Of a stretch of DNA of 64,000 nucleotides, positions 15,559 through 42,600 are shown in pieces. The translations under genes and the position numbers were made by a program. Each line of letters starts with the position of its first letter. Positions within the stretch are counted from its first letter, which is position 1. The notes under the pieces were generated by a model. That model saw nothing but the letters and a program-made list of their open reading frames with translations. It made no database searches and was not told the origin of the DNA. The stretch spans positions 113,422 to 177,421 of the forward strand of contig JAQGHA010000010.1 in NCBI GenBank assembly GCA_028289065.1. Reading direction: 5' to 3'. Origin of the DNA: Candidatus Saccharimonadota bacterium (GTDB taxonomy: Bacteria; Patescibacteriota; Saccharimonadia; Saccharimonadales; Saccharimonadaceae).

Positions 15559-15568
15559 TTCGTTGAAA

Positions 15569-16292: not shown

Positions 16293-16293
16293 A

Positions 16294-16328: not shown

Positions 16329-16379
16329 AAGCATTATAGAGATGTCTCCATTTCGGAGACTTCTTGTTATTATGTAGAT

Positions 16380-16721: not shown

Positions 16722-16846
16722 ATGTAATATAGAAAAGTCTCTAATGTAGAGGCTTTTTGTCTGACTGCTCATGTTTGCATTTGGTTCGTAAAAATGAGTA
16801 AATACAAATGCTACTCACAACCTACCTTGCAAAGAAGGAGTAAGAA

Positions 16847-17056: not shown

Positions 17057-17156
17057 ATAGTCCACAATCAACAGCCCGCTCTACGATAATGGAATTGCCC
17101 AACCTTTGGTTGATGAGCTGCTTATCTACTAAAAGAGCGGGCTTTTTCATACAAAT

Positions 17157-17190
17157 AGTTCGAAACACATCCACTAGGCCGCCCAACATA
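17157..17190 (+). repeat. Cassette site 13 (degenerate, last)
   Basis: AGTTCGAAACACATCCACTA then GGCCGCCCAACATAAGC: the left half is good, the right half diverged. No type-A or type-B hairpin is clear after it. No further copy is seen to the right. Confidence 0.65.
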
Positions 17191-17230
17191 AGCTATTTAC
17201 AAATACCTTATTTTGTGGTATTTTGTTTTT

Positions 17231-20840: not shown

Positions 20841-20871
20841 CGGCGAAAGCTGCCTGAACAAAGGAAAAGCA

Positions 20872-21222
20872 ATGGAAACCATCAATGCCATCCTCGAGGT
20901 GGTCAACAACTTGCCGGTGCACTTGCTGGCACTGCCCGTGGAACCGATTCACGAGCCGCCCGCCGATTGCGGCGTCATCAGCGGGCTTCTGAACAATGAA
21001 ATCGTTCAGAAGTTCTGGGGATGGACAAAGGCTATCCCGGTTCTCGGGAAGTACATCCTAGTCCCGATTTTGGCTGTTGTCCTCGCCATGTACTGGTTCG
21101 GCATGAAGCATGCCGGAAACAAGATACTCAAGGTGATCATGTCGGCGGTCGTGTTGACCATTGTCATACTCATCTTGCCGGGTCTCACCGAAGGAACGAA
21201 CATGTTCGGATCCTGCGGTTAG
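20872..21222 (+). CDS. VirB2-like small two-TM protein
   Basis: A 116-aa protein behind AAAGGAAAAGC. An N-terminal segment with Cys (PPADCGVISGLL) is followed by two TM helices (GKYILVPILAVVLAMYWFGM and ILKVIMSAVVLTIVILILPG) and a short tail ending FGSCG. Size, two TM helices and position just upstream of a VirB6-like gene fit a VirB2/TrbC-type pilin or channel subunit. No sequence signature of VirB2 is strong enough to be sure. The two cysteines could form a disulfide outside the membrane. Confidence 0.6.
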   Translation: METINAILEVVNNLPVHLLALPVEPIHEPPADCGVISGLLNNEIVQKFWGWTKAIPVLGKYILVPILAVVLAMYWFGMKHAGNKILKVIMSAVVLTIVILILPGLTEGTNMFGSCG

Positions 21223-21300
21223 TCGCACCGGGTAGCCCGCCACGGATTTGTCTGTGGCGGGCTACCCCCCCCGTTTTTTCATCACAAGTTTTGAAAGGCG

Positions 21301-22815: not shown

Positions 22816-22818
22816 CCC

Positions 22819-24399
22819 ATGGCTGATAAAGTAAAACCAGAGGACCTAACTCTGCACCCAAGAGGGCGAAGTCCTCGCTATGGATCACTGGGAGGTTTGG
22901 ACTTTCCGTTCATCCTTATCGTCGGGTCTGGTTTCTATATAGGATCAGACCTGGCTGCCGGGCCGATGCGTAGCTGGGTAACCATCCTAGGTGCGGTCGG
23001 TCTGCTGTTTTCGTTGATACGGTTAGGGAGATACAACAGGCGTCTTTACATGATGCCGAGCTTCCTTACCGCGAATTACTGGCTACGTCGTATCCGACAC
23101 AATCGGCTCTGGACGCAACAGCCAACAACGACACAGACGGTCGAAATCGCGAAGAAGGACGTTAGTTCGGCGCAGTCAATCCTGCCCATCCGAACCGTTC
23201 GATTTGGCGACCTGGGGCTCGTAGTGAACGAGAAATACAAGATGGTCTCGTTCGCTGTCAAAATTTCAGGTACCAACATCACGACGAAGACCATCTCTGA
23301 GCAGCAGGCCTTCAATGTCAAGCTGAGCAAAGCGCTGACATTCGCCTTCGCAACGGTTCGTCGATCTAACCCATGGATCGGCATGATCTACCGTTCTCGC
23401 CCGGACAACCCGTACGAGTACGAAAAAATCCTCCTCGATATCGTCGATGACCGAACACTGGTCCCGCAAGGAGAAACAAAACCGCTCGCAGAATGGGATG
23501 AAAACGACTACATAAATGCATTCGTGCATCAGGTCGTCGTTCAAGAGGGTCTCGAGACAATCGAGACACTCGTCGAGCCAGAAATGGTGTTCATGTTCAC
23601 TGTCAAGTACAGTAAACACTTCGGGAATGTTCTTGCAGAAGCCCAAAAAGCAAAAAGCAAGACGGAGGTGAAGTTTAGCTACAGAGACCTCCAAAAAGAG
23701 CCCTTCCACCGTCTTCAACAAGCGATTGTCCCGCTGTTGAGCGACGTCATGACGGGTGAACTTTCCGTAATGAACTTCGATGAAATGGTCATGTACCTGC
23801 GTAAGGCGCACGACCTGGACATCTCCCGGTACTACCTGGAAGCCTACCTTGCCGAACAAAGAGGCGAGTCGTTGTCCAGCACTAGCTGGATGCCGGTCGG
23901 CTACATCGACGAGTACAAAGACAAGGTCGACGTAAACGGGAGCTGGTCTGCCACCATCTACCCGACGTCCTTTCCTGATGAGTTCGCGTTCCCTTTCACA
24001 GGGCGCGCGTTCTACACTCCCAGAACGCTGCACTACACTGCAGCGACAATTGGGAAGATAACAAAGGGAGACCACCGCTATCGGTTCATTCAAGGCAAGA
24101 GTGACATGTCCGCCGGTGCGAAGGACTTCTTTGGGATCACCAGTAGTGGACCCAGGGCGCACCAGGCAGAGCGAGATGCCTACAACACAATGGCTCAGCT
24201 GGATAAATCAGGGTGGGCGGTTACATACCAGCCCATGTTGACCGTCAGCAAGCCGACTGAACGAGAGTTGGAAGAAACTCTCAACGAAGTCACCGCACAA
24301 CTTGATGGTTTGTTTTTTGAACCTCAGCGCGTGCTTGGTGAAAGCGTTCAGTGGGAGGAGTTTTTCACGGCCTCCACAGGTATTCCGCTTCACTTCTAA
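22819..24399 (+). CDS. SCO6880/VirB4 N-terminal-half-like T4SS protein
   Basis: 526 aa. Two short TM helices near the start (LDFPFILIVGSGFYIGSD; WVTILGAVGLLFSLIRLG) resemble a PrgI/VirB3-like module. A large soluble domain follows that resembles the N-terminal part of VirB4 ATPases or actinobacterial SCO6880-type proteins (FAVKISGTNITTKTISEQQA; LTVSKPTERELEETLNEV; WEEFFTASTGIPLHF). No Walker A is present. The next gene supplies the ATPase, so a VirB3-VirB4 fusion appears to have been split into two polypeptides. It starts 3 nt after the VirB6-like stop, with SD AAGGGAG. Confidence 0.65.
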   Translation: MADKVKPEDLTLHPRGRSPRYGSLGGLDFPFILIVGSGFYIGSDLAAGPMRSWVTILGAVGLLFSLIRLGRYNRRLYMMPSFLTANYWLRRIRHNRLWTQQPTTTQTVEIAKKDVSSAQSILPIRTVRFGDLGLVVNEKYKMVSFAVKISGTNITTKTISEQQAFNVKLSKALTFAFATVRRSNPWIGMIYRSRPDNPYEYEKILLDIVDDRTLVPQGETKPLAEWDENDYINAFVHQVVVQEGLETIETLVEPEMVFMFTVKYSKHFGNVLAEAQKAKSKTEVKFSYRDLQKEPFHRLQQAIVPLLSDVMTGELSVMNFDEMVMYLRKAHDLDISRYYLEAYLAEQRGESLSSTSWMPVGYIDEYKDKVDVNGSWSATIYPTSFPDEFAFPFTGRAFYTPRTLHYTAATIGKITKGDHRYRFIQGKSDMSAGAKDFFGITSSGPRAHQAERDAYNTMAQLDKSGWAVTYQPMLTVSKPTERELEETLNEVTAQLDGLFFEPQRVLGESVQWEEFFTASTGIPLHF

Positions 24400-24433
24400 G
24401 CAAGGCGAAGTGATCATTTCGACAGTTAAGGTG

Positions 24434-24519
24434 TTCCCTGGGGGCTGTAAGGCGTAAGCTTTGCAGTCCCCAGGTTAACATCCCAGTTTTATATCTATAA
24501 ATGGATAGATGCAAAACTG
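24434..24519 (+). repeat. Two hairpins between the split VirB4 genes
   Basis: CCTGGGG (24437-24443) / CCCCAGG (24468-24474) is followed by CAGTTTT...TCTAT (24484-24498) / ATAGA...AAAACTG (24506-24519) around an AAATGG loop. The GC-hairpin-then-AT-hairpin order mirrors inverted-repeat copies A-D. They may stop or process the mRNA between the two halves and so set their ratio. Confidence 0.5.
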
Positions 24520-24566
24520 AGGTGTCAACCGACTCCTCATGAATCACTTTACAACTAGGAAAGCAG

Positions 24567-26102
24567 GTGTACGTCATGGACGGACCAGCATTTGAAGCAG
24601 GCCTCAAGGCATTCGTGCTTTGGCAGTCTGTGATTACCAACGCGCCACTCCAAAAGCGCGGCCTTTTGTTTGGGTACGAGCTTGAGACGTTGCGACGTCT
24701 CTACTTCAACCCCTTCACTCTTCAAGTCGACACTACGACGTGCTTGATGGAAGGTTCGCGCAACATGGGCAAGAGCGCCACCCTCAAAATCTTGTTCACC
24801 TTGTTGATGTCACTCGAAATCAACGAACTTGATAGCGAGGGTAACCTCGAGTACTTCCGTGCTCGGTCATTCAGTCGCAAATCATCAAAGGCGACGACTG
24901 AGGATGGGAGTGTGTACCACCCCGAATTCGAGCTTCTGGCCGAGGCTATGAAGCAAAAAATGTTTGTCCTAGGTCAGGGAACTGGCCTCAACTTGTTGAG
25001 TATCTTCAACAAAGAAACGGACATCATCGAATTCGTACTGGCGGCAATTGAGATGGAGCTGGAGCGCACACCGGGCCCAGACGTCACAAACGTCATCATG
25101 GTCGGTGTCAACAAGATGGTGCAGGAAGTCCAACCGACGCAAGTTTCGTTGGGCGTCTTGAACAACAAGCTCAGCGAACTTTCGTTCGCAGACCAGGAGA
25201 CGTACCACGTCAACTACCGCGCCCAGGTCGCTGAAACCTTCGAGCTGGACAATGCAGACCTGAAGAAAGAAGTGAAGGTCGTTAAAGCGACAGAAGTGCA
25301 GCAGGTGCGGCCTGAGCACATCCGAGCATCGAGCGAAGCTCGGTTCTACCAGGCCATCGACCTCGCCATGACGTGCATACACCAGATTCTCGAAGGAGAT
25401 TACGGTGGAGCGTTTAATGGATATGTCGACGTGTACGACGTGCTTGCGCGCCGTGTTGGTCACATTGACCTAGAGGCACTTCCGCCAAAGGGTCAAGCGC
25501 TTTTCGAGATGGCATTGCTGCGAGCGCAGTCGAATGCCATCATTGCCTCAAAGCAGGATATTGGCGGTGGCCGTAACCTTCTGAAAACGATTCCGCACTA
25601 CAACGCGGGCGACGAAGAAGGCATTGCCATCAAGAGCCCAGCGCACCTTCGGTCGCTGGCGCTTTGGATGATCCGGCAACGGTCATTCCCAACAGCAGAC
25701 TTCCGTACTATCCAGTTCGGAAGCCAACTGCTCCAAGCAGGAGACGCTGGTTCAGCTATGCGCGGGCTTGCACTTGAGATCGAGCAGGGCTTTGGCTACC
25801 GGATGATCTTCGGACAGCCCAGGCAGAAGAAAACCCTTGATCGCTACCGCGAGCTCAACCTGGCCGAGCCATATGTCCAATTGATTCCGGATTTGAAACC
25901 GGGTCAAATGATTCTGTTGCCGAAGGACAACGAACCAGTGGTGTCACGAATCATCGTGCCGCCATCGTTGCGTTCGGTCATCAAGACGGACGCTGCACGA
26001 CACATCACCGACAAGGTGGACCGTGGCAAAGAGGCGGCTGAGATGCGCGAGCGTTTCGCAACGCTGCGTCCCCACGGAACACTCCTGAAGAAGAAAGCGT
26101 GA
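24567..26102 (+). CDS. VirB4/TraC-like ATPase (C-terminal half)
   Basis: 511 aa. The Walker A is LMEGSRNMGKSATLKIL near residues 58-74. The middle contains VTNVIMVGVNKMVQEV and a helical stretch, and FGYRMIFGQPRQKKTLDRYR lies near the C-terminus, in the style of VirB4/TrwK motor domains. VirB4 powers assembly and substrate handling in type IV secretion. The start is GTG 24567 (SD AGGA six nt before, the same spacing as the 20872 gene) or ATG 24576. The Walker B Asp/Glu pair is not obvious by eye, so activity is inferred from Walker A and position. Confidence 0.72.
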   Translation: MYVMDGPAFEAGLKAFVLWQSVITNAPLQKRGLLFGYELETLRRLYFNPFTLQVDTTTCLMEGSRNMGKSATLKILFTLLMSLEINELDSEGNLEYFRARSFSRKSSKATTEDGSVYHPEFELLAEAMKQKMFVLGQGTGLNLLSIFNKETDIIEFVLAAIEMELERTPGPDVTNVIMVGVNKMVQEVQPTQVSLGVLNNKLSELSFADQETYHVNYRAQVAETFELDNADLKKEVKVVKATEVQQVRPEHIRASSEARFYQAIDLAMTCIHQILEGDYGGAFNGYVDVYDVLARRVGHIDLEALPPKGQALFEMALLRAQSNAIIASKQDIGGGRNLLKTIPHYNAGDEEGIAIKSPAHLRSLALWMIRQRSFPTADFRTIQFGSQLLQAGDAGSAMRGLALEIEQGFGYRMIFGQPRQKKTLDRYRELNLAEPYVQLIPDLKPGQMILLPKDNEPVVSRIIVPPSLRSVIKTDAARHITDKVDRGKEAAEMRERFATLRPHGTLLKKKA

Positions 26103-26108
26103 TAGAAC

Positions 26109-27314
26109 ATGCGAAAATCTTGGGTGGCGATTGTCATACTGCTGTTGGCAGTCGCCATCTTCGGTCCCATCGTTCTTCTGAGCGGTGTGATTGTAGGTGG
26201 TGGTGCTATCATTGCGGCGGCTGGCTGCCAAGCACCATTGCTTCAAGTAGCAGTTGCGCAGACAGCAGAAAGTACTACAACACTGCCAAAAGCAACTACG
26301 GAGTATCTCGAAAAAAGGAACGTCAAATCACTTGCTGAGCAAAACATGGAACGTTATCTCGCAGCCCAAACAGCTGAGGGAGTTCCATGGCAAGTGATAG
26401 CAGCGTTGCACTATCGTGAGGCCGGCATGGATCCAACCAAGTCGATCTCCAACGGCGCAACACTTGGAAGTGGTGTCAATGTCGACGGCGTTAACGTCGT
26501 CGAAGATGCCAACCAAGATGCTATCAACATGGCAAAGCATTTCAAGCGAATGGCAAAGTCTGTCTACGGCATCGATGTTGAAAAAGATGCTATGACAGCC
26601 GAGCTGTGGGGACAGGCCTTCTTGGCCTATAACCGCGGTTCGCTGTACAAGAGACAAGGAAGCACCTACGATCAGTCACCATACGTGATGAACGGGCTCG
26701 ATGAGAGTCATATGAATATGCGTTGGGTTGCTGCCGATACCGTTAACGGCGTCGATGGCAACAAGGCTGGTGCATTAACTGTGCTTCAGTACCTCGGAGC
26801 TGGATCATCCAATGCAAGCAGCGGGCTTAGCTGTGAAGCAACGTCGGTTACGGCCGACTTGGCCAATCCGCTTGACGGAAAAATGGTCGTATCGAGCATC
26901 TTTGGCGAGCGATTCCACCCTATCTATCATCGCTGGATTCTGCATGATGGCTTGGATATTGTCGGAAGTAGCGGCATCCAAGCAATTTCTGCAGGAAAAG
27001 TGGTGTGGTCGGGTCCTAACGGTACGTTAGGCAATTATGTGAAGATCGATCATGGCAACGGACTAATGTCCGGGTACGGCCACATGTCAAGCATCGATAG
27101 CGCCGTCAAGGTTGGCGCGACGGTTCAGGCAGGTCAGCACCTTGGTGTAATGGGAAAGACGGGCGCCGTAACTGGGGTGCACGTTCATCTGAAGATATGG
27201 GTACCCGATAGTACCGGGAAATCTGTGTCGACAGACCCTGAAGAGTTTTTGGCTACGCACGGTATCATCATCCCGCGCCAGTCTGGACTCCCCAAAAGTC
27301 CCTACGTAAAATGA
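26109..27314 (+). CDS. Two-domain peptidoglycan hydrolase (transglycosylase-like + M23)
   Basis: A 401-aa exported or membrane-anchored protein. An N-terminal TM anchor (VAIVILLLAVAIFGPIVLL) precedes a lytic-transglycosylase-like helical domain (PWQVIAALHYREAGMDPTKS with the likely catalytic Glu). The C-terminal M23/LytM domain runs from GERFHPIYHRWILHDGLDIV (HxxxD) to GVHVHLKI (HxH). Such enzymes open the wall for the T4SS channel; in Gram-positive systems VirB1-like hydrolases have the same two-domain layout. It starts 6 nt after the VirB4 stop and is last in the operon, followed by a strong terminator at 27419. Confidence 0.85.
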   Translation: MRKSWVAIVILLLAVAIFGPIVLLSGVIVGGGAIIAAAGCQAPLLQVAVAQTAESTTTLPKATTEYLEKRNVKSLAEQNMERYLAAQTAEGVPWQVIAALHYREAGMDPTKSISNGATLGSGVNVDGVNVVEDANQDAINMAKHFKRMAKSVYGIDVEKDAMTAELWGQAFLAYNRGSLYKRQGSTYDQSPYVMNGLDESHMNMRWVAADTVNGVDGNKAGALTVLQYLGAGSSNASSGLSCEATSVTADLANPLDGKMVVSSIFGERFHPIYHRWILHDGLDIVGSSGIQAISAGKVVWSGPNGTLGNYVKIDHGNGLMSGYGHMSSIDSAVKVGATVQAGQHLGVMGKTGAVTGVHVHLKIWVPDSTGKSVSTDPEEFLATHGIIIPRQSGLPKSPYVK

Positions 27315-27498: not shown

Positions 27499-27528
27499 AT
27501 GCTATTTTGTTGAAACTGTAAAAGAAAT

Positions 27529-27555
27529 AAAAAGCCTTCGTTTAGAAGGCTTTTT
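27529..27555. terminator. Bidirectional terminator between convergent operons
   Basis: AAAAAGCCTTC (27529-27539) / GAAGGCTTTTT (27545-27555). Perfect arms with A- and T-runs serve the T4SS operon on plus and the 27573 gene on minus. Confidence 0.85.
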
Positions 27556-27572
27556 ATAATTTATGACGGTAT

Positions 27573-30503
27573 TTATTTTACCTCAGCTTTTAGTAACCCG
27601 TCTGTATAAGCATATGTATAATTTGCATTATCGAACTGACCTATTGGATATTCATGAGCTGTATCCCAGCTATCTGGAGCCGCATTACAACCAGCTTCAC
27701 CAACAATAATCATACCTTTAACCCTGTCGAACCCAAGAACAACACCAGTATGACCACAAATTCCGCCACCCGGGCAAGACTGTGATCCAAAACGAGTACT
27801 AAATATTGCATTCACACGAGGTGTATGACCAATTTCTACTTGTGGGTTCCTTGCAGAAAGGTTCCGTATAACCGTCCCACCGTTTCCAGGTTGCGTACCA
27901 GCACCCATACCGCCAATGGTAGTAAACTTATTAATGAAGTATGCCGAGAAAGAAACGCAGTTGGAAAGCGGGCCGCCTCTACAATCTTGAGCAGCGCCAC
28001 CAATATACTGCATACTATCGGCCTTGTTATCGAGATATCTCTTAACAAATCCTTTTGCTTCTTCGATGGTCATTCCATCTTGAAGCTTTCTTAGACGTTC
28101 AGCTTCGACACGAGCCGCCGCTGCAGCTGCTGCTTCACCTTTTATCGCTTCCATTTGTCCATTTACTTGGTCAAAAATCTGTTGTGCTTCAATAACGCGT
28201 TTATCACCATGAGAAACTTTTTCATTAGGACGTTCAAAGTTCCATCGCCAATACGCAGCAGCTGCTGCTGGGTCGGTTATTCCAACAAAGCCTTCCCATT
28301 CATTTGCCTCCGGATTATCACGCTGGGTTCTGCCCTTCGACTCATCGATAGTGAAATTCACTTGGTAGGTAGGGTCTAGTACAGATACACCTTTTTCTTT
28401 GGCGGTGTTTTCCAAAGCTATTCGTCGTCCAAATGTATGTTGGAATAAACCTAAGCCTTTATCCTTTCGGGAAGTTTCCTCTTCTATTCCAGGCTTGTAA
28501 TACTTAGACTCAACGGATGAATTTCCAGCTGCTCCAGCGGCTGCTGCGAGCGACGCGCCAGCTGCGACCATCTGCCTTACAATAATTGTCTTTGCCTCTG
28601 GCCAACCAAAAGCGGCCGCTGCACGGTCAATTCCACCTTGCAACAAACGGTTAGGGTCAGCAGCAATAGCTTCAATTTCACTAAGTGCCGAGTTGCCTTG
28701 TGCGGCGGCGTCAGCGGCTGCTTTCGCTTCTGCGGCAGCCTTTGCTTCAGCATCTTTAAATCCTTGAATCTCCGCTGCCTGATCGGTGTCCGAAACGCTT
28801 GCAAGTAAAATGTAGGCATACATCGTCTCAACTGGTAATAAATGCGGCTCTTCGATATTAGCTTGAAGAGCGCCACCATTAGCAGCTAATGCATCTTTTG
28901 CTATTCCAACGTACTTTTCGAATAATTTCGCTTGATATGCGTCTGCCGGTGCTTTTATATCAGTGAGTAATGATTGAACATCAGGGGAATCCAGTACACT
29001 TTTATCATTAGCAGCAGCATCAAGTACGCTGAGGGCGGTGAGGGCAGTATTAATATAATGTACATCGGTGTGAAAACCTTTTACTGAATTTAAGTCTTTG
29101 AATGTTACTTGCATTAAGCGAGATTGTTTTACAAGTTCTGCATTGGTAGTTTCATATACCGGCACACCTTCTTGGTAAGTGGTTGAGACTACATCTTTAT
29201 TATGGAATTTCAAACGTATAAACGAAGCAGCAGAAGAAACATCGCCTTTATTAATAAGGTCTTTAATTTTTTGTATAACTAGCTGTTCGGGTGTCGCAGT
29301 TTTTTCATCTAGTTCAGGGACATCGCTTACTACATCAGGTACAGCCGATATTGGTTGAGACTCAATAAGCTTGCCATCTTCATCAATGGCCGTGTCGGGT
29401 AAACCGATATTATCAGGGTTAATATTTGTATCAAGTTTTGCTTTCAGATTTTCTTCGGGCGATGATGGAAAAATAGAGGTGTTGGGTTTTTCTGATTCTT
29501 TTAGTTCGACATTTACAGCGACATGAGTTTCAGAAATCGTTCTGGCGGCAGGAACTTCCGGCGCTGGAAAAACAGATGTAGATTCTTTTTCTTTGACAGT
29601 ATTTATATCATTTCCTACGCCCACTTCAATTTGACTAGAACTGGCAACAGGGGCTTCTGGTGTACCGAAAACGCTAGCTGAAGGCTTCGCTATAACTTGA
29701 TTGGTTGGCAATCCAACTTCGATAGCTGTTTCACCATTTTGAGTACTCACATTCGATGAGGCTTTGGTTGTTTGTATAGGACTTGCAAATGCCACGGTGT
29801 TTGCGGTGAGAACAGATGTTGCAACCATGGCAACAGTACCGGTACTTCTAATAATTTTTGCATGTTTTTTTGTAAAATTCGCAATATCTTCAACATACGA
29901 GGGTATTGTTTCGAATTCTATAGCAACGTTCAAATCATCAAGTATTTTATCTGCCAAATTCAATGCCGACAGCTCAGAAGCGGTAACTGACTTTTTCTGA
30001 GAGGAAGCATGGAGTTTTTTGTGACTTTTTTGTACATACTCTCTTTTTAAATTTCTAATCTTATCATCACCGATAGCTAATCCTATGGCAACAAAAGCAT
30101 CATTCATGTGATCTTCGAGAGTTATTTCAGGATTAAGTGCAATATCGATATATACCTTAGCCATATCCAATAGCGTCGATTCAGGAAAGTCTAAGTCACA
30201 AGTCTTTTTTATTGCCTCGCTGAATTTGGTTTCGGCATCGCGAATTTTATTTGCCTTACCTCTCGTTTGAGGCCTGATTTTGTGAACATCATCATTGTAT
30301 GAACTAAGTGTGCTCCAAAATGCATCAATCGCTAATTCATGACATATTTCATGCTCGGAGGTGACTATATTCTTTGGTAAATCGTCATATATCCGCTTAA
30401 TACCGTCTAAACCTGGTTTTCGGCCAAGCGATAAACTACGAGAATTAGTATTTTTAGTTTCAACTTCTAGTTCTTTTTCTCGGCGTATTTTAAGCGGTCC
30501 CAT
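27573..30503 (-). CDS. 976-aa membrane-anchored protein with tail-lysozyme-like and CHAP-like domains
   Basis: Residues 1-220 are cytoplasmic-looking and helical. A TM segment follows near 222-245 (GTVAMVATSVLTANTVAFA). A long Ser/Pro/Glu-rich linker leads to an Ala-rich helical region. The C-terminal ~300 residues contain a phage-tail-lysozyme-like domain (AAGNSSVESKYYKPGIEEE ... GLGLFQHTF) and a CHAP/NlpC-like segment (CRGGPLSNCVSFSAYFINKF; GICGHTGVVLGFD) with candidate Cys and His. It probably cuts peptidoglycan outside the cell. Last gene of the minus-strand operon; it ends against the T4SS operon. Such a protein could remodel the cell's own or a host's wall. Confidence 0.75.
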   Translation of the reverse strand: MGPLKIRREKELEVETKNTNSRSLSLGRKPGLDGIKRIYDDLPKNIVTSEHEICHELAIDAFWSTLSSYNDDVHKIRPQTRGKANKIRDAETKFSEAIKKTCDLDFPESTLLDMAKVYIDIALNPEITLEDHMNDAFVAIGLAIGDDKIRNLKREYVQKSHKKLHASSQKKSVTASELSALNLADKILDDLNVAIEFETIPSYVEDIANFTKKHAKIIRSTGTVAMVATSVLTANTVAFASPIQTTKASSNVSTQNGETAIEVGLPTNQVIAKPSASVFGTPEAPVASSSQIEVGVGNDINTVKEKESTSVFPAPEVPAARTISETHVAVNVELKESEKPNTSIFPSSPEENLKAKLDTNINPDNIGLPDTAIDEDGKLIESQPISAVPDVVSDVPELDEKTATPEQLVIQKIKDLINKGDVSSAASFIRLKFHNKDVVSTTYQEGVPVYETTNAELVKQSRLMQVTFKDLNSVKGFHTDVHYINTALTALSVLDAAANDKSVLDSPDVQSLLTDIKAPADAYQAKLFEKYVGIAKDALAANGGALQANIEEPHLLPVETMYAYILLASVSDTDQAAEIQGFKDAEAKAAAEAKAAADAAAQGNSALSEIEAIAADPNRLLQGGIDRAAAAFGWPEAKTIIVRQMVAAGASLAAAAGAAGNSSVESKYYKPGIEEETSRKDKGLGLFQHTFGRRIALENTAKEKGVSVLDPTYQVNFTIDESKGRTQRDNPEANEWEGFVGITDPAAAAAYWRWNFERPNEKVSHGDKRVIEAQQIFDQVNGQMEAIKGEAAAAAAARVEAERLRKLQDGMTIEEAKGFVKRYLDNKADSMQYIGGAAQDCRGGPLSNCVSFSAYFINKFTTIGGMGAGTQPGNGGTVIRNLSARNPQVEIGHTPRVNAIFSTRFGSQSCPGGGICGHTGVVLGFDRVKGMIIVGEAGCNAAPDSWDTAHEYPIGQFDNANYTYAYTDGLLKAEVK

Positions 30504-30506
30504 GTA

Positions 30507-32111
30507 CTAATCTTCCTTCGGTGTTTCACTTTTTTTATCAGAATATACTACTACTTGTGCCTTACGTAAAATGTTTTTACCCAATTTTCCTACAAGCGTT
30601 TCCCAGATTGTATCAATTTTTTCTCTCATTACTTCATCGAGCTTTTGGGTATTTTTAGGTATAGAGACGACATCGCTAACGTTTAGTATTCCTACTTCAG
30701 GTATTTGCAATAGGGGAGGTAGAGGCTTATCGATGAAAGCTTTTATGTAATCGTCATCAGCGTCATCATTCGCGTCATAACTTTGATCAAGTTCTCTTTG
30801 CATTGCCCTCGTCGCTACATATAAAGGTTTGAGAATATCAAATACATCAGCTGGTTTTACAAGTCTTGGACTTTGAATGATTTTATCATATTGCTGCATC
30901 ATATCTGAGGTTATACCACTATGTACAGAAATAGTTGGAGCAACTTCATTGAATTCAAAATTCAAAACTTTCTGCTGATCATCAATTGTTTTTAGTATTT
31001 CATCAAATTTTTTTCTAGTACGGTCTATAACAAGCTCAACTTCTTCAATGACGTCAATAACTGCATTCTTTTCGATTTCATTATCACTCAGCGCTTCGTC
31101 AATTAATGAAATATTTTTTAGAATAGCAATAAGTTCTTTTGAAGTCGCATTTTCTTTAGCTTTTTTAATAAATTCTTCGATTTGGTCCATGCTAACATCT
31201 ACGATTTCATCTTCGTCATCTTCGGAAAAATCAATCGTATCTATCGTTTCTGAATCATGAATTATCTCAGCTGGCTCAAAAATCCCACTTTCATCGTCTT
31301 TTCTTGCCAATTCCGCTTCGGCCAGTTTTATTCTTTTTTCTTCTTCTGCGGCGATAATTGGCCCGGCAAGTGCTTCACGCTCATTGAGCTCGTCGGTTAC
31401 AGCAAGAAGTCTAACTTTGAAAAGCTTAGTTCGATCCTCTTCTAGTGTTTCTAACCGGGTATCCAAAACAACGATTTTTTCTTCCGCATCTGCAAGAATT
31501 TTTTCATGTTCTTCATATTCTGCTCGGTGAACGTTTATAGAATCAATTGCAGCGTCTCGTCGTTTTTCATGTTCTTCTTGGCTTTTTTCACCTGATTTTA
31601 TGTAGAACGTTATATCTTCTATAGCCTTGCTACTAGCCTTCAAGAGGTCGTCAGCTTTACTTTTACTAGCTGTAGCTTCATTAGTTCTTGAACCCTTTTC
31701 ATTTAATAAGCCATTCACGAGGTGATCTCGATATGCTGTAAGCGCGTCTATCTGCAATTGGATAGCTTGATCCGTTAAAGCAATCTTTCTTTCATAGGTA
31801 TCATCCGTATATTGAGTTATTTGATCGGCTGCTTTTGTAATTTTTTCAAAAGTAGCTTGTGCAAATACCTCCATGGTTTGTAGCTTTTCATTTGCGTCAT
31901 TATATCGTTTATGAATTCGGTCAGCATTAGCCTCAAGTGTACTTTCTGATTTAGGTTCGTTTGCTTCTTCTGGTTCTTCGACTATTTCCCCAATTGAAAT
32001 AGATTGATCTTGTGGTTCTAAATCATCAGGAGATATACTCGAATGTAGCAACACGTCGGTTGGCACACTATTGTGTTCGGTATTGTTCAGTTGCTCATAG
32101 ATAGTAGACAT
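30507..32111 (-). CDS. 534-aa acidic coiled-coil protein
   Basis: Starts MSTIYEQLNNTEHNSVPTDV. Dominated by heptad-like charged helices from about residue 60 to 420 (TMEVFAQATFEKITKAADQI, KILADAEEKIVVLDTRLETL), with a very acidic stretch around 300 (SEDDEDEIVDVSMDQIEEF). No TM segment or signal is seen. No family recognised. It is likely a cytoplasmic scaffold or ruler for the envelope proteins encoded on both sides. Its stop lies 3 nt upstream of the 976-aa gene's start, so the two are tightly coupled. Confidence 0.65.
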   Translation of the reverse strand: MSTIYEQLNNTEHNSVPTDVLLHSSISPDDLEPQDQSISIGEIVEEPEEANEPKSESTLEANADRIHKRYNDANEKLQTMEVFAQATFEKITKAADQITQYTDDTYERKIALTDQAIQLQIDALTAYRDHLVNGLLNEKGSRTNEATASKSKADDLLKASSKAIEDITFYIKSGEKSQEEHEKRRDAAIDSINVHRAEYEEHEKILADAEEKIVVLDTRLETLEEDRTKLFKVRLLAVTDELNEREALAGPIIAAEEEKRIKLAEAELARKDDESGIFEPAEIIHDSETIDTIDFSEDDEDEIVDVSMDQIEEFIKKAKENATSKELIAILKNISLIDEALSDNEIEKNAVIDVIEEVELVIDRTRKKFDEILKTIDDQQKVLNFEFNEVAPTISVHSGITSDMMQQYDKIIQSPRLVKPADVFDILKPLYVATRAMQRELDQSYDANDDADDDYIKAFIDKPLPPLLQIPEVGILNVSDVVSIPKNTQKLDEVMREKIDTIWETLVGKLGKNILRKAQVVVYSDKKSETPKED

Positions 32112-32131
32112 AATAAATCCTTTCTTGTACG

Positions 32132-33505
32132 TTATGGTGCTACGGTTGGCATTGGTTCTGGGGTTGATGTAGGGCTTTTTGTCGGTACTTCAACATCTAA
32201 CGGCTGTAAAGCTCCGATTGTTATTTTTGCAGATCTGATATTGAACTTATTGTCTGTCGCGAAGCCTACGGGTGGGGTGACAGTAGCTGCGGGCATTTTT
32301 GTTGCATCATCTAGAGGCACATCGGGAAGCAATTTATAGCTACCACCCTTAAAAAGAGGGGGTACCTTAGGGTTGCCTACAATCTGTTGAATGATGGCGT
32401 TATCAATCGCTTTTTCAACCGTAAGAGCATCTCCTGGTAAATCAATATTGTCTTGACTAGCTAAGACTTCACTCAGTTCTTGAATTGCTTTAATTTTTGC
32501 ATACTGGTACATAGTCTGTTGTTGAGCAGAGTCGGCGTATGAAGCAACCAACGCTTCTCTGGCTGCATTAAATACCTCATCCTTACCAAGTTTCAGGAAT
32601 AACCCATACTCCGGGTTGGGGAATGTCATAAATTCACCTTCATGAGGGTCGGCGTCAACGTATGCTCCATCATTCTGATATTGAATCTGCATATCTATAT
32701 CAAACAGGCTTTTAGGGTCCCTGAAGGTAATTACTAGTTTCGATCGATCGACTGTAACAAAGTCCCCTTGAACTTCGATAGAACCGGTTGGATCACAAAT
32801 ATTAACTCCAAAAGGAATATTATTTAACGTAACTTCAGGGAAACCGCTATTTGTCACAAACTTTCTAAGGTCAATACCGTTTCCAAGGACCGCTTGACCT
32901 TCTGCTTGCTTATTAATATTTTCTTCAGTTAAATAAGGCTTCTGCTTTATAGGCGTAGCACTATTTGCGTCTGCAAGCAGTATTTCTTCAGCTATTTCAC
33001 CACTAAGGCTGACCGCCAAAATAGTTTTTTCAGGTTTATCACAAGTATCAGGGTCAAAAGGAGAAACACCTAAGGTTTCAAGCGGAGAAACCTCGGTTAT
33101 GTCTTCGTTGTTGAAGTTAAATTTTAAATTATCTAATGCAGATGTTGCGTTATCTCGAACCCCGCCGAGGTTAAATCCATAAGCACCACCCGCGACAACG
33201 GCAATTGCTAGGGCGGCTATAGATGATTTTTTTACTATTTTTCTTAAATGCTCGTTCTTTTTACCAGGCGTAACGTTATTCTCAGCGGCTCTTGGTGCTG
33301 GTGTATCATTTTTTGGTCGAGTCTCGGGGGCAGGCTGTACGACGGGTCGAGGCTGAGGCTGCTGTCGTTGTTGTGGCTGCTGTTGCCTTTGTCTGGCTTG
33401 TTCGGTTGTTCTACTTGAAAGCCATTTACTTAGATCATTAATATCTACACCAGTGTGATGGTCGTCGTATTTCTCTTGTTCGGATTTGTTTAAAAATTCA
33501 CCCAT
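32132..33505 (-). CDS. 457-aa single-TM protein with Q/P-rich N-terminus, DUF4230-like
   Basis: Residues 1-85 are hydrophilic with a Gln/Arg/Pro repeat tract (ARQRQQQPQQRQQPQPRPV). A TM helix follows near 95-115 (SSIAALAIAVVAGGAYGFNL). The outer domain has VTVDRSKLVITFRDPKSLFD and AKIKAIQELSEVLASQDNI, a pattern similar to the downstream part of DUF4230 proteins. It shares this build (disordered cytoplasmic N-terminus, one TM, alpha/beta outer domain) with the 34224 gene product, so the two may be paralogues. Translation overlaps the upstream gene by 1 nt. Confidence 0.6.
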   Translation of the reverse strand: MGEFLNKSEQEKYDDHHTGVDINDLSKWLSSRTTEQARQRQQQPQQRQQPQPRPVVQPAPETRPKNDTPAPRAAENNVTPGKKNEHLRKIVKKSSIAALAIAVVAGGAYGFNLGGVRDNATSALDNLKFNFNNEDITEVSPLETLGVSPFDPDTCDKPEKTILAVSLSGEIAEEILLADANSATPIKQKPYLTEENINKQAEGQAVLGNGIDLRKFVTNSGFPEVTLNNIPFGVNICDPTGSIEVQGDFVTVDRSKLVITFRDPKSLFDIDMQIQYQNDGAYVDADPHEGEFMTFPNPEYGLFLKLGKDEVFNAAREALVASYADSAQQQTMYQYAKIKAIQELSEVLASQDNIDLPGDALTVEKAIDNAIIQQIVGNPKVPPLFKGGSYKLLPDVPLDDATKMPAATVTPPVGFATDNKFNIRSAKITIGALQPLDVEVPTKSPTSTPEPMPTVAP

Positions 33506-34224
33506 TATTTTGCCGCCATAGTGTCATTACTAATAAATGGTAGATAGCTTAGTAACTTTTCACTATATTCATTCGTGTAGCACGATAGGTTAAATAGATA
33601 AGGCGCATGTCCACATGCTTCAGCCGCTTGATCTCCGTAATTCATAACTGCGGCCGCTGGAATACCGAGAACGCTAGTTGTCGCTACAAAAGCCATGCTA
33701 AACATCAATCCTGAGGAAAGCGGTTTACGAAGTGGCGGACGCTCATATTTAACATTTGAACCAGGGTCTGGATCAGAGTCTGAATTAGAACCTTGATCAT
33801 CATCAGGAACTTGAGGAAGGACAACAGTTTCTTGCGTAGCAAAACTATCTGGTTCTGATGAACTAATCATGGTACTACCTGAAATATCTTCAATCTCTTC
33901 ATCGTCTGACCAAGACCCCTGAGAAGTATTGTAATTCTCCGTTTGCGGTTGGCTACCTGCAGAATTCAGAGTTGAAGCCAGACTGGCAATTCCTAGTATC
34001 GCAGGGTGTACTTCACCGCTTGAAGAACTGGTTTTGATTTTTAAACTCATTTCGAACTTATTAGTCCCAGTTCCAGGACTGAGGAATTTTTGTTCAGGCT
34101 GGGCCTGAAGTTCGTTTATCCGTGGTACATGCTCCACAATTTTTCCTTTTTCATCAACGGAAAATACTACGCCTTCATGCCGATATTTTTTTCCAGGCAC
34201 TGGTATAAATTCAGAGTTTGTCAT
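33505..34224 (-). CDS. 239-aa protein with C-terminal TM helix
   Basis: Starts MTNSEFIPVPGKKYRHEGVV. A long acidic, probably disordered region (residues ~90-165, rich in Ser, Asp, Pro) leads to a TM helix near 173-195 (SGLMFSMAFVATTSVLGIPA). A short outer domain follows with two Cys (ACGHAPYLFNLSCYTNEYSE) that could be disulfide-bonded. No family recognised. It sits between two single-TM proteins with 1-nt overlaps on both sides, so it is probably a stoichiometric part of the same membrane complex. Confidence 0.6.
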   Translation of the reverse strand: MTNSEFIPVPGKKYRHEGVVFSVDEKGKIVEHVPRINELQAQPEQKFLSPGTGTNKFEMSLKIKTSSSSGEVHPAILGIASLASTLNSAGSQPQTENYNTSQGSWSDDEEIEDISGSTMISSSEPDSFATQETVVLPQVPDDDQGSNSDSDPDPGSNVKYERPPLRKPLSSGLMFSMAFVATTSVLGIPAAAVMNYGDQAAEACGHAPYLFNLSCYTNEYSEKLLSYLPFISNDTMAAK

Positions 34225-35384
34225 TACTTGGCATCCTTATTGGTTTTCGTTGAAGTAGACTTGTCTTCTAACGCCGGCAGAGCGCTTTCTACCACACCAC
34301 ACGTCATAGGTTTACTTGCTTCTTCTTTCTTTGAAGAAAATATCCCTACCTCTGTATAATCATTTAGCTCGTCAATATTCCCTTGATCAGGTTTAATATT
34401 GTTCGTTTGTTTGATAACAATCTTAGCATTTCTTACAAGTTTTGCTGTTTTTTCCAATGTCATCTTTGATAGTGCGATAGACACTTCATTTCTATAGTTA
34501 TCTACATCAAGAATCTTGCCTTTTACTGCCTCACGAAGGTTATTTTTCAATTTTTCATCATATCCTTCAACGGCTTTTGAAATAAGGGGAGTACATTCTT
34601 TGTCAACTTGCGTAAGTATAATAAAATCGGCGTATCTTTCGAGCGTCTGTTCAATGTTCAACTTTTTTGTTTTCATCTCTTGGACTATATCAAGATCTGC
34701 CATCTTGATATCTTTAATATTTAGATCCTCTAAACGGTTATCTATCGAGTCAGCAACAAGTGTCCAAAAATCAAGCTGTTCTTTTATTTCACTTGGAGCA
34801 CTGTCGTACGTCTTAGCCGATCCATCTTTTATATGAACATCTGCAGTAAGAGCAGCTTTGGATGCCGTTATGGTTAATTGTTCTGTATTAGGATCTAAGG
34901 TTACGGCAACTTGTTTAGTATCGAGCATAACATCGGTTTCAATGATAGCTTTGCGAGTGACATAGTCGGAATTAAAATCTTTTCCAGCAAAAGATTGATC
35001 CATAGCAATGGTCACTCCCTCTACCGCCGTCTCTGCATGAGCAAGAGACACTGTATCCATGTCATCCATGTATGCATGAAGAATTTTAGCATGCCCATTG
35101 CTCGTGACTCCACCTTCGCTGACAACTTTTGGCGACGTAGCATTCGCTACCGAGACTATGTACCCAACACCACTAACAGCCCCTACCAGAATACCGGCAA
35201 CTGCCACTCCACCCATGATGCTAACAAGATTACCACCAGAGAAATAACGCCTGGTCTTTCTTTCCGGTATATTTTGAGTTAATTCGTCGCGTTGTTGTGT
35301 TGACTCGCTATTAGAAATACCGCCCATTGCAAGAAGTTCTTCAACCTGTCGTTGGTTGTATGTTGGTGTCTTTGGTTTTCTCAT
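34224..35384 (-). CDS. 386-aa single-TM protein with DUF4230-like outer domain
   Basis: ATG 35384 is chosen: GGGAGTG lies 5 nt upstream, and the 30-codon extension covers the promoter -10. After ~70 polar residues a TM helix follows (LVSIMGGVAVAGILVGAVSG). The outer part contains GVTIAMDQSFAGKDFNSDYV and KQVAVTLDPNTEQLTITASK, typical of DUF4230 in order and hydrophobic pattern. DUF4230 proteins are membrane-anchored and uncharacterised. First gene of the five-gene minus-strand operon, driven by TTGACA-17-TATATA, with a palindrome upstream (35497-35515). Confidence 0.65.
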   Translation of the reverse strand: MRKPKTPTYNQRQVEELLAMGGISNSESTQQRDELTQNIPERKTRRYFSGGNLVSIMGGVAVAGILVGAVSGVGYIVSVANATSPKVVSEGGVTSNGHAKILHAYMDDMDTVSLAHAETAVEGVTIAMDQSFAGKDFNSDYVTRKAIIETDVMLDTKQVAVTLDPNTEQLTITASKAALTADVHIKDGSAKTYDSAPSEIKEQLDFWTLVADSIDNRLEDLNIKDIKMADLDIVQEMKTKKLNIEQTLERYADFIILTQVDKECTPLISKAVEGYDEKLKNNLREAVKGKILDVDNYRNEVSIALSKMTLEKTAKLVRNAKIVIKQTNNIKPDQGNIDELNDYTEVGIFSSKKEEASKPMTCGVVESALPALEDKSTSTKTNKDAK

Positions 35385-35445: not shown

Positions 35446-35474
35446 TATATAAACTTAATTTGCTTTAATGTCAA
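35446..35474 (-). promoter_or_regulatory. Promoter of the envelope operon
   Basis: On the minus strand TTGACA (complement of 35469-35474) is separated by 17 nt from TATATA (about 35451-35446). Confidence 0.75.
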
Positions 35475-35623: not shown

Positions 35624-36175
35624 CTACTGGTTGTTGACGATGAACTCTTTCAGCCGCTTGTCGCGCCGAGCGGCACGGGAGGACGTTAATGCCAGCCTCG
35701 GGAGCTTCGGTCGTGTGAACGACTCGATCGGAATGTTCACCTTTAGCTTATTCCACAGGAGACCGATGGTCAGAAGGAGGAATAAGATCAGGTAGACTAT
35801 GCTCGATCGTCCAGCCCAGCCATCCACCGCCAGAAGGTTTCCCTCGGGAAGGAATGACAAGAACGAATTCGCTCGCAGTACAGCTCCACCGCCAGTATCC
35901 ATGACAAACACGGTTACACAGAAGGGTGCAATGATCGACACCACGGCTTGAACAACTGTTTGCATAGGTACATCAGCACCACTGCGAACTCGGTTAGCCG
36001 AACGTAGCGTCACCGCCATCACGACGAATAGGCCGACAAGTACGAAGACAGAAACGAGCATGGAGATGATGCTTTTCAGGATCAACAGCACCCCTCCGGC
36101 CGAAATCAAATCAACGCTGTGCAAGATTATCCCGAATGCCGCAAGGGCAAGCAAGACCGTTCGATATTGCAACAT
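35624..36175 (-). CDS. 183-aa four-TM membrane protein (GC-type)
   Basis: Starts MLQYRTVLLALAAFGIILHS. Four hydrophobic segments are visible (TVLLALAAFGIILHSVDLI; IISMLVSVFVLVGLFVVMAV; AVVSIIAPFCVTVFVM; IVYLILFLLLTIGLLW). A basic C-terminal tail follows (LALTSSRAARRDKRLKEFIV). No family recognised. GC-rich codons. TGCTATCAT on the minus strand (about 36246-36254) may be its -10. It lies divergently from the 36395 gene and shares a regulatory interval with it. Confidence 0.65.
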   Translation of the reverse strand: MLQYRTVLLALAAFGIILHSVDLISAGGVLLILKSIISMLVSVFVLVGLFVVMAVTLRSANRVRSGADVPMQTVVQAVVSIIAPFCVTVFVMDTGGGAVLRANSFLSFLPEGNLLAVDGWAGRSSIVYLILFLLLTIGLLWNKLKVNIPIESFTRPKLPRLALTSSRAARRDKRLKEFIVNNQ

Positions 36176-36305: not shown

Positions 36306-36340
36306 TTGACATAAATTCATTTACAGGTACACTGTAAATG
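36306..36340 (+). promoter_or_regulatory. Promoter overlapped by a 9-bp palindrome (operator)
   Basis: TTGACA (36306-36311) and TACACT (36328-36333, 16-nt spacer). CATTTACAG (36318-36326) - GTACA - CTGTAAATG (36332-36340) is a perfect inverted repeat that covers the -10, and a further half-site CTGTAAAT lies at about 36294. This is the classic layout for a dimeric repressor. Confidence 0.75.
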
Positions 36341-36394
36341 TCGTATAGCGTAACTGAAAAATTCATGATTCACAAACGAGAGCAGGTGATTAGT

Positions 36395-36736
36395 ATGTCC
36401 TTCTTCATAAACGTAAGGCCTCCGAAAGTAGGTTGGATAGAGTCCGGCAAGCGGTTCTTCTACAACGATGAGGAGAGGAGCCGGTTTCCATTTGTAGCCA
36501 GGGCCTTGGCTACAGTCCTAAGGACAGTGTTCTTCGTGGGTGGACCAATAACATTACTGGACGACATCGGTAACGCCGTGCCGGGTCTCAACATTTTTAC
36601 CATGGGAAATGATGTTGTGGCTGCGTTCACTCTGTTCGCACTCATCCGGATCTGCGTGATTCATCACCAGGCCAATAGTCTAATCGAGATGAAAGTCTTG
36701 GCTGCCGACTATCGAATGCTCAGGAACTCTCTGTAA
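36395..36736 (+). CDS. 113-aa membrane protein under operator control (GC-type)
   Basis: The start ATG 36395 follows GCAGGTG; the longer frame from 36338 would begin inside the operator. The protein MSFFINVRPPKVGWIESGKR continues RFFYNDEERSRFP, then two moderately hydrophobic segments (VLRTVFFVGGPITLLDDIG; VVAAFTLFALIRICVIH). No family recognised. The palindrome across its promoter suggests tight repression by a regulator encoded outside this window. A GC hairpin (36752-36787) follows. Confidence 0.6.
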   Translation: MSFFINVRPPKVGWIESGKRFFYNDEERSRFPFVARALATVLRTVFFVGGPITLLDDIGNAVPGLNIFTMGNDVVAAFTLFALIRICVIHHQANSLIEMKVLAADYRMLRNSL

Positions 36737-36898: not shown

Positions 36899-37105
36899 TT
36901 AGAGTTTAATAACCCAAATCAACACAGCGGCGGCTACTGCGGCCAGGACAAAGAACAGTCCTAAACCTACAGGTGAACCCCAGCTAAACCATGAACCCCA
37001 AGCTCGCCAGTGACTCCAGTGGGCTTTGGAAAGTTCCTGCCACTCGGCGTACTGTTGCTTAGCTTCTTGGTCTCGCTTTAGCTTTTTTTCTTCGCGATCA
37101 ACCAT
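36899..37105 (-). CDS. 68-aa C-tail-anchored membrane protein
   Basis: MVDREEKKLKRDQEAKQQYA (charged, helical) then a Trp-rich segment (WSHWRAWGSWFSWGSPVG) and a C-terminal TM helix (LFFVLAAVAAAVLIWVIKL). SD AAGGAGATC precedes the ATG. No family recognised. The Trp/Gly-rich stretch next to the membrane may be an interfacial helix. It is a single-gene unit with the bidirectional terminator at its 3' end. Confidence 0.7.
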   Translation of the reverse strand: MVDREEKKLKRDQEAKQQYAEWQELSKAHWSHWRAWGSWFSWGSPVGLGLFFVLAAVAAAVLIWVIKL

Positions 37106-39615: not shown

Positions 39616-42600
39616 GTGATAGAAAATATAAAATACGGATATACGAAGAGGGTAAAGAACGCAGTTGTTTCTGTATTTTTATTCGTACTTAGCGTACTGG
39701 CCGTAACTGTATTTATTGACCCAGTACAAGCACTGGCTGCACCAGTTGTAACAAGTGTTGCACCGTCATCAGTGAGTCCAAATGGTGGTGACAGTATTAC
39801 CATCACTGGAAGTGATTTCGTTGATGGCGCCTTGGTGTACTTTGATAATATCCCAGCATCGTCCGTTACTTTCATCAGTCCCGAAACGCTGACTGCGGTA
39901 ACTCCGGCGAATAATACGGGAGTTAAAGATGTAACTGTTATAAATCCGGACACATCAGAAAATACATTAGTTAATAGCCTTACGTACACTGAATCAACCA
40001 TGACAGTTACTAGCATTGCGCCTACATCGGGTACGGTATTAGGAGATGACGATGTACTCATTTCCGGATCGAATTTTAGCCCTGGCGTCGCCGAAATTAC
40101 CAAAGTTAGCACCGGTGGAGCATTTTCTTGTGGAATTTATAACAATGAGGCGTACTGCTGGGGTGATAACAGTTTCGGTCAACTAGGTAATAATTCGAAG
40201 ACCCAATCCAGAGTACCAACACCCGTAGATACCTCTGGCGTGCTTGCCGGCAAAACAATCACTTCAATAAGCGCCGGTGATTACCGCGCTTGTTTGGTGA
40301 CGTCCGATAACCTTGCCTATTGTTGGGGATACGGTGATAACGGTGAATTAGGCAATGGGGGATACACTGCATCTCTTGTACCTGTCAAAGTACTATTGAC
40401 CGGTGCCCTTGAGGGCAAAACAGTAAAATCAATCTCAACTGGCCTCTTTCATACCTGTGTTGTTGCCTCTGATGACAAAGCCTATTGCTGGGGGAGTAAT
40501 AGCAGTGGCCAATTAGGTAACAATTCGACAGTCACGGCCCGCGTGCCGGTAGCAGTCAGTACAGCCGGTGTGTTAGCTAATAAAAATATTGCATCAATTG
40601 AAGCCGGTGGTCTTATTACCTGTGCCGTCACTACCGATGGTCAGGCGTCTTGTTGGGGTGCAAACTATTACGGCCAACTAGGTAACGGTGGAGTAAACCA
40701 ATCAAACACTCCAAAAGCAATTTATATGTTCGGTGTTTTATCGAATAAAACTATTACATCAATAAGCAGTACGAACGATCATACATGTTTAATTGCATCT
40801 GATGCGCAGGTATATTGTTGGGGTGGACCAAATGACTATGGACAATATGGAACCGGCGCCACTGGAACACAATCTGAAATTCCAGTAGCGACATATACTG
40901 GCGGGGAGATAGCGGGAAAAACCATAGTCGCTATTAGTACTGGTGCATACCATACATGTGCGCTTGATTCTGACAGTAAAGCATATTGTTGGGGTCGAAA
41001 CGAGTCAGGTCAACTTGGCATTGGGTCAAATTCAACTGCAACCCGTCCTGCAGCTGTTATTGCATCGGGCGCCTTGGCTCATAGAAAGATAACATCCATC
41101 AGTACTGGTACGGTACAAACATGCGTAAGTACCAACGATGGAGCGGCTATTTGTTGGGGTGTTAATATTCAAGGTCAGCTAGGTAATGGCTCAACAACCG
41201 CTTCCAACACGCCAGTTCAAGTAGCCAACGCGGCTATAAAAAATATAGATGTGACATTTGGCGGAATTGCTGCAACCAACGTGCAAATAGTATCTTCAAC
41301 TTCATTAAGCGCCAAGACACCTGCTCAATCTGCCGGCGCAAAAGATGTTGCGGTATCTCGTTATGATAGCGAAGTTGTCACGCTTCCGAATGCGTATACC
41401 TACATTGCAAACTCTTCTATAACGTCGGTCTCTCCAGCCAATGCGCCGAAAACAGGTGGCGACACAATTACAATTACCGGTACGGGCTTTGATGCAAATA
41501 CAAAAGTGAAATTGGCTGGAAATTATATCGATACCGTAACGTATATTGATGAAACCACGTTAACATTTATTACACCTGCAGCCGCTTCAGCTGGGCCGGT
41601 TGATGTATCGATTGAGGATACATCTGGGGCAACATCTACACTTACCGATGCATTTACGTACACCATACCGGATCCTGTGCTTGTATCAGTTTCACCGGCA
41701 GTGGGGCCTATGAATGGCGGCACTTCGATTACTATTAATGGTACTGGTTTTGATGCAAACCCAGATGGAGCCACATGGTATCAGGTACATATTGGCGACA
41801 TTTTAGCTACAGATGTAACATACGTAAACGATACGACACTGACTGCATCCACGCCGGCGGGCACCATTGGAATGAACGATGTTTCGGTCTCAAGCATATA
41901 TACGAATACCGTAACGCTGGCAGAAAGCTATACATATATAGCTCAGTCATATGCGTTTACGAATACCGCCTTAAACTTATCAAAGGATGAAATAGGTACG
42001 TTAGTTATTACCGCCCGTAATGGAAGCAATGCGCCCGTGACATCAACCGTACCTACCACAGTGACACTGGCGACAACGTCGGCTGGAGGTGCTTTTGCGC
42101 GCAACCTCAGCGAAGATATTACTAGTCGCTGGAGTTATACAACGGTTATTATTCCTGCCGGGCAATCGTCGGTGAATGTGTATTACAAAGATACAGCCAT
42201 AGGCACCCCAACAATTACGGGTACAGTCGAAGGTGTTGCATCGTTTACTCAACTTGCAACCATTAGCTCGCCATTTAGGTTTGTCGTTAATGGTGTCAGT
42301 GACCCAATTAAAGCCGGTGTGCCGAGCTCAGTTACTATTCGAGTTACCGATAAAAATGGCGTCCAACGTAATGATTACACCGGCACTATTGTGTTTAGTT
42401 CAGATGATCCACTCGCAACCTTACCGCTCAGTTATACGATGAAGCCAACTGATTATGGTATAAAGACGTTCACTAATGGTGTAACGATGGGAAGCGTTGG
42501 CGAATTCTGCGTTACAGCAGCCGATTCAGTTGATAGTGCGCTTGTAACGGGCCAACAGTGTAGCATTACTGTTCAATCGGCTACCGTTGGTACTATTTCA

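Follow-up and report, generated by a model that had tools for sequence, protein, structure and literature searches.

A possible wall-opening module: a rare five-gene envelope operon beside a divergent type IV secretion system in Saccharibacteria

What might a compact set of envelope genes be doing beside a secretion system in a bacterium that lives on other bacteria? Saccharibacteria are a parasitic lineage, episymbionts of host bacteria, and the question is raised by a 64,000-nucleotide stretch of contig JAQGHA010000010.1 from Candidatus Saccharimonadota—hereafter the window. On its minus strand, from 35384 down to 27573, lie five open reading frames (ORFs) in the same direction, here called P5, P4, P3, P2, and P1, which converge on a type IV secretion system (T4SS) operon. 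An earlier note on this DNA had suggested that the two operons together may build an undescribed apparatus that spans the envelope and serves to transfer DNA or to attach to a host. We tentatively favor a different answer, and hold it as a serious possibility short of a probable one: that the five genes are a stand-alone, VirB1-like wall-opening module that is carried as island cargo and is not integral to the neighboring T4SS. The operon and its signals are as follows (TM, transmembrane segment; aa, amino acids).

35446-35474, minus strand: promoter-like TTGACA-17-TATATA, 90 nt upstream of P5
35392-35396, minus strand: Shine-Dalgarno-like GGGAG, read from the sequence, preceding the P5 ATG at 35384
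34224-35384, minus strand: P5, 386 aa, one TM at about 49-78, ectodomain with Cys264 and Cys362
33505-34224, minus strand: P4, 239 aa, one TM at about 173-195, short ectodomain with Cys204 and Cys215
32132-33505, minus strand: P3, 457 aa, QP-rich N-terminal tail, one TM at about 90-110, ectodomain with Cys155 and Cys237
30507-32111, minus strand: P2, 534 aa, soluble, cytoplasmic, probably coiled coil
27573-30503, minus strand: P1, 976 aa, multi-domain wall hydrolase
27527-27557, minus strand: terminator-like hairpin of 13 pairs, after P1
27476-27491, plus strand: terminator-like hairpin of the T4SS operon, distinct from the one after P1

The five-gene operon is real. The ORFs stand exactly where the earlier note had placed them, with gaps of -1, -1, 20, and 3 nt in the order P5-P4-P3-P2-P1; the common promoter that it proposed is borne out by a single plausible TTGACA-17-TATATA upstream of P5, which was read by eye and was not listed by a consensus scanner. 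The convergence on the T4SS operon, whose last gene encodes an M23 wall hydrolase, likewise holds. A chance origin is very unlikely, since a syntenic operon occurs in a second genome, G174, which belongs to a different family of the same order.

The G174 operon, reached by the N-terminal part of P1 at E 1e-6 in a search of 344 genomes of the order, encodes proteins of 324, 186, 154 (an extra ORF), 440, 507, and 1026 aa, in that order. Window and G174 proteins were compared with 200 shuffles per pair: the signal is strong for P3 (28% identity, z 18.5) and the N-terminal part of P1 (z 21.1), and smaller for P2 (z 4.7) and P5 (z 3.8, equalled in 0 of 200 shuffles). For the separate regions of P1, the scores are z 15.9 in the helical domain and z 3.6 in the N-terminal domain; no signal comes from the linker or the Ala-rich parts. 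The cysteines of P3 (155, 237) and P5 (264, 362) align with cysteines in G174. Homology is thus firm for P3 and P1 and likely for P2 and P5, and P4 corresponds by position only. The catalytic end is a different matter: the G174 protein carries a lysozyme-like part and a VanY domain (E 3.5e-14). The lysozyme-like part has no Pfam match, so that its name is our own reading, and it resembles the N-terminal part of the M23 protein of the window's T4SS (27% over 155 columns, E 6e-7). The catalytic end of P1 is swapped in G174, and the comparison indicates a conserved chassis with exchangeable wall hydrolases.

What is the chassis made of? A hydropathy scan finds a single TM-like segment in each of P5, P4, and P3, and no hydrophobic segment reaching the 1.6 threshold in P2. 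The earlier description of P3 and P5 as single-TM proteins therefore stands, although their likeness to DUF4230—an impression of a single TM followed by an ectodomain—does not: neither they nor their G174 counterparts match the Pfam profile at E up to 5. A paralogy of P3 and P5 was also rejected, as profile comparison aligns only the TM stretch (probability 0.8). P4 does have one TM and the cysteine pair ascribed to it, C204/C215, but the pair has no counterpart in the G174 ectodomain. The coiled-coil scaffold proposed for P2 is suggestive only, with a heptad signal that was equalled in 28 of 300 shuffles. P1 is laid out as follows.

P1 residues 1-215: N-terminal domain
P1 residues about 222-240: hydrophobic segment
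P1 residues to about 410: linker
P1 residues 470-600: conserved helical domain
P1 residues 641-778: Phage_lysozyme2
P1 residues 843-934: CHAP

The lysozyme module is a clear Pfam match (PF18013, E 4.3e-21), and the CHAP module (PF05257), absent from the full-length Pfam scan, passes its cut-off of 26 with 28.0 bits once the scan is restricted to the last 162 residues. Both modules had been predicted at the two ends of the protein; both are present, but in its C-terminal third. Alignment with hydrolases of other genomes shows a conserved Glu in the Phage_lysozyme2 part and conserved Cys, His, and Glu in the CHAP part, all of them catalytic-looking residues.

The hydrophobic segment, which the earlier note did not mention, scores 1.41, and its G174 counterpart at about residue 202 scores 1.44. 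Its nature bears on a rival explanation, in which the cell secretes P1 as a lysin that attacks competitors or the host bacterium. The hydrophobic stretch would then be a signal that is cleaved off, and the remaining genes would encode a device for export or retention. The stretch ends in AFA/SP in the window and AAA/QA in G174 (slash, presumed cleavage point), which fit signal-peptidase sites. A signal peptide after some 200 residues would be unusual, however, and Pfam finds no wall-binding domain in P1; we consider a secreted lysin improbable.

The operon is rare, occurring in 2 of the 344 genomes of the order, the window's own and G174. A P3 profile matches six of these genomes at E 0.01, of which two were accepted; the other four (G107, G238, G272, G359; E 1.8e-5 to 0.007) were discounted as weak, as were matches to P5 in G176 and G261 (E 0.008-0.009) and to the N-terminal part of P1 in G045, G064, G076, and G081 (E 0.002-0.009). 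Comparison of the G107 and G176 neighborhoods revealed no operon, and in G176 a 123-aa ORF resembling part of P5 (E 1.7e-4). With blastp, P2-P5 are unmatched in the G081, G045, and G261 stretches, and P1 has weak matches in G081 (E 1e-4) and G045 (E 0.003); the neighborhoods in G064, G076, G238, G272, and G359 were left unread. The P3 profile finds only G174 itself in G174's family (1 of 93 genomes) and only the window's own genome across the phylum (1 of 202); among 61 near genomes, P3 matches only itself (1 of 61). Full-length P1 matches 12 of the 61 near genomes, including its own, and every non-self match falls at residue 641 or beyond; the matches in the 11 other genomes were hence rejected as operon relatives, the catalytic end alone having matched. 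Plasmids gave no match for P5 or the N-terminal part of P1, and literature searches turned up no description of the five-gene operon.

Could the operon be a tail or lysis module derived from a phage? The family to which the lysozyme domain belongs takes its name from phage tail lysozyme, and a G027 relative of the P1 domain matches, by sequence, "Morphogenesis protein 1" structures (3csq, E 5.6e-6), presumably phi29 gp13. Through this relative the P1 domain is related to the lysozyme domain of gp13, a tail-knob lysozyme/endopeptidase that also has a second peptidase domain. Unlike in phi29, there are no virion genes here and the P1 architecture is membrane-tethered. Neither virion or packaging genes nearby nor phage relatives mark a prophage: P1 and P3 are unmatched in 50,697 phage records, four scans of viral contigs gave pattern matches and no confirmed relative, and the operon proteins have no convincing PHROGs match. 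We regard a phage origin as very improbable.

Among the closest known parallels are wall hydrolases of T4SSs. In genome G027, a 415-aa hydrolase from a cluster beside dnaA/dnaN/recF (the cluster, including its T4SS, is named from our own reading of its ORFs) passes the Pfam cut-off for Phage_lysozyme2 and falls just short of it for CHAP; in the window's own genome a 419-aa hydrolase of the oriC T4SS cluster (C10) combines Phage_lysozyme2 with a weak NlpC/P60 match. Like P1, both oriC hydrolases pair Phage_lysozyme2 with a CHAP or NlpC/P60-like module, and the catalytic modules can be aligned; unlike P1, they lack the long N-terminal half and are located inside the T4SS cluster. No profile match to P2, P3, P5, or the P1 helical domain was found among oriC T4SS-cluster proteins. 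As a separate observation, a G027 hydrolase at L017 14985-16895, beside dnaA/dnaN/recF, has Phage_lysozyme2 followed by a domain resembling GDSL lipases, which at E 4.9e-6 does not reach the Pfam cut-off, and, by alignment, a CHAP-like end.

PrgK of pCF10 is an example of the VirB1-type hydrolases of monoderm T4SSs (MPF-FATA). In such enzymes, glycan-cleaving modules are joined to CHAP or other peptidase modules and attached to an envelope machine (PMC12102498). P1 has the same glycan-cleaving and CHAP/peptidase combination; it differs in the 215-residue N-terminal domain before its membrane segment, in its own operon with four partners lacking known relatives, and in that G174 has this operon but no detectable T4SS of the neighboring type. 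Nor is P1 a regular member of, or neighbor to, a virB4 cluster—it is adjacent in the window, but convergent. Ca. S. epibionticum cannot grow epibiotically without its T4SS, in which no coupling and relaxase proteins are recognizable (PMC10633639). Homologues of lysozyme and peptidase directly downstream of virB4 are said to have been essential there (PMC12102498). A wall-opening role is the most economical reading because the P1 modules match the oriC T4SS hydrolases and because of this essentiality in Ca. S. epibionticum.

Does the operon then serve the T4SS next to it? The neighbor is a second, divergent T4SS, and the following genes were read in and beside it.

18216-27314, plus strand: neighboring T4SS, starting with a two-TM protein
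19521-20840, plus strand: ParA/MinD-like ATPase
20872-21222, plus strand: small TM protein
21301-22815, plus strand: VirB6-like protein, named by topology and position
22819-24399, plus strand: N-terminal part of VirB4, 526 aa, weak match to NF045975 (E 0.01)
24567-26102, plus strand: C-terminal ATPase part of VirB4, 511 aa
26109-27314, plus strand: M23 hydrolase
35624-36175, minus strand, and 36338-36736, plus strand: two small TM genes beyond the five-gene operon, GC content at third codon positions (GC3) 0.59-0.63, as in the T4SS

In a profile-profile comparison, a nine-row profile of the VirB4 C-terminal part matches the genome's own housekeeping VirB4 (probability 98, E 1.3e-13); none of the nine members is recognized as VirB4 by Pfam. 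At most of the loci read, the C-terminal ORF comes after a separate one of about 520-600 aa. This appears as a second T4SS lineage in Saccharibacteria that Pfam does not recognize, with a two-gene VirB4 and a ParA/MinD-like ATPase, in 11 of the 344 genomes of the order (for example G001:C1:608315-615517, from a genome in the same genus as the window's).

That the operon and this T4SS make up a single apparatus spanning the envelope, for DNA transfer or attachment to a host, is suggested by their 3' ends, which are separated by about 260 nt on one island, and by the wall hydrolase that each encodes. Occurrence argues otherwise: in profile searches, 11 of the 344 genomes have the T4SS and 2 have the operon. 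Only the window's genome has both, and an overlap of at least one genome has a chance probability of about 0.06. The co-occurrence of the five genes with the T4SS, which the earlier idea called for, was thus not borne out. No operon stands at the flanks of nine of the ten other loci with this T4SS (G001, G218, G096, G196, G100, G121, G299, G032, G156; the G096 contig is only 10.8 kb long), the tenth, in G294, having been left out because blastp did not recover the VirB4 ORF. The VirB4 profile of the neighboring type finds no match in G174. Composition and signals also separate the two: GC3 is 0.52-0.76 in the T4SS genes and 0.26-0.32 in the operon genes, with no overlap (Mann-Whitney P 0.006), and each operon has its own terminator-like hairpin. 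Since the small genes beyond the operon share the T4SS-like GC3, it looks as if the operon had been inserted into the T4SS block; no target-site duplications beyond chance were seen around the operon or the larger block. Of the earlier proposal, the envelope complex is upheld by topology, hydrolase modules, and the G174 gene order, while joint work with the T4SS is disfavored by occurrence, flanks, and composition. We consider a single apparatus quite unlikely; the operon may still cooperate functionally with the neighboring T4SS or with the oriC T4SS.

The cargo part of our preferred reading refers to an island. The block of T4SS and operon is located beyond a tRNA-Trp island, with these landmarks.

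5670-5744: tRNA-Trp
5688-7178: large serine recombinase, 3' end overlapping tRNA-Trp
7285-8091: rolling-circle-type replication initiator, beside the serine recombinase
10046-17193: integron-like gene-cassette array
39616-49773: gene for a 3385-aa protein

A counterpart of the gene at 3100-4254 is also near tRNA-Trp in G013, G004, G008, and G003, and in G003 matches to window 36949-37012 and to the gene at 49845 lie nearby. G014 and G015 have the tRNA-Trp, an array, and right-hand genes without the block, and neither has a T4SS profile match. The recombinase would supply the integrase of a conjugative element (ICE), and it and the initiator (5688-8091) are possibly the island's mobility genes; no type IV coupling protein or relaxase match was found among the window genes scanned with Pfam.

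The array is an observation in its own right. It holds about 13 copies of the repeat AGTTCGAAGCTCGTCCACTAGGGGCTGCCAAGCATAAGC, which stand at the ends of small unrelated ORFs—NUDIX, ATP-grasp, C39-like, and others. After most of them come a terminator-like stem and a -10 resembling TATGAT. CTGCCA and further letters of the repeat recur in the tRNA-Trp 3' end and flank, best in G004; arrays begin right after tRNA-Trp in G014, G015, and G134, the last from another genus, and at least one copy occurs in 17 of 101 family genomes. Literature searches turned up no description of the array, and it may be more novel than the five-gene operon. The 3385-aa protein has an unusual combination of RCC1 repeats, TIG domains, and a C-terminal histidine-kinase-type ATPase domain.

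How would a wall-opening module work? P5, P4, and P3 would form a membrane complex with disulfide-stabilized ectodomains, and cytoplasmic P2 would connect it to the 215-residue N-terminal domain of P1. P1 would cross the membrane once and display its hydrolase on a flexible linker; glycan and peptide cleavage would thereby be restricted to one envelope site. Travelling as island cargo, the module would make an opening in the cell's own wall for some surface machine, most likely one or the other kind of T4SS, or it would work where the cell touches a host bacterium. We infer both the step from gene order to complex and that from complex to target, own or host wall. The scaffold would be the new part: three TM proteins, a soluble elongated protein, and the 600-residue N-terminal half of P1, which appear to match nothing known.

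Several results weigh against this proposal. Only two instances of the operon are known, and P4 has no sequence similarity to the 186-aa TM protein in the same position in G174 (z -0.4). The five-protein complex is argued from gene order because only P1 has convincing known relatives; for P2-P5 none was found in Pfam, NCBIfam, PHROGs, PADLOC, or PDB sequences, and two single-sequence AlphaFold predictions were unusable (mean pLDDT 34.5 and 32.3). The hydrophobic segment of P1 scores under the TM threshold and could be an internal signal peptide that releases the hydrolase.

The same anatomy could belong to an operon that is island cargo and reshapes the wall of its own cell during growth or division, as a hydrolase regulator of the FtsEX type would. 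Regulated self-wall enzymes share its features—a hydrolase tethered to the membrane, with a domain and a partner in the cytoplasm—and the exchangeable hydrolases also speak for such a role; however, presence in 2 of 344 genomes and an island position are ill-suited to a core growth function, and profile scans found no ATPase in the operon. Self-remodelling is, in our judgment, unlikely. The wall-opening module also has a more ambitious form, which we think rather unlikely: an undescribed, laterally transferred envelope machine, in which a conserved membrane scaffold bears exchangeable wall-cutting heads matched to host peptidoglycan and breaches the host wall or seats a secretion channel there.

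How Saccharibacteria open their own and the host wall for surface machines is an unsolved problem. The operon would be of modest interest if it were merely a cargo lysin or a self-remodelling enzyme; if the wall-opening reading is true, a scaffold operon with swappable hydrolase heads would offer a discrete, testable gene set for wall opening, and an example of a wall-opening module that moves between families.

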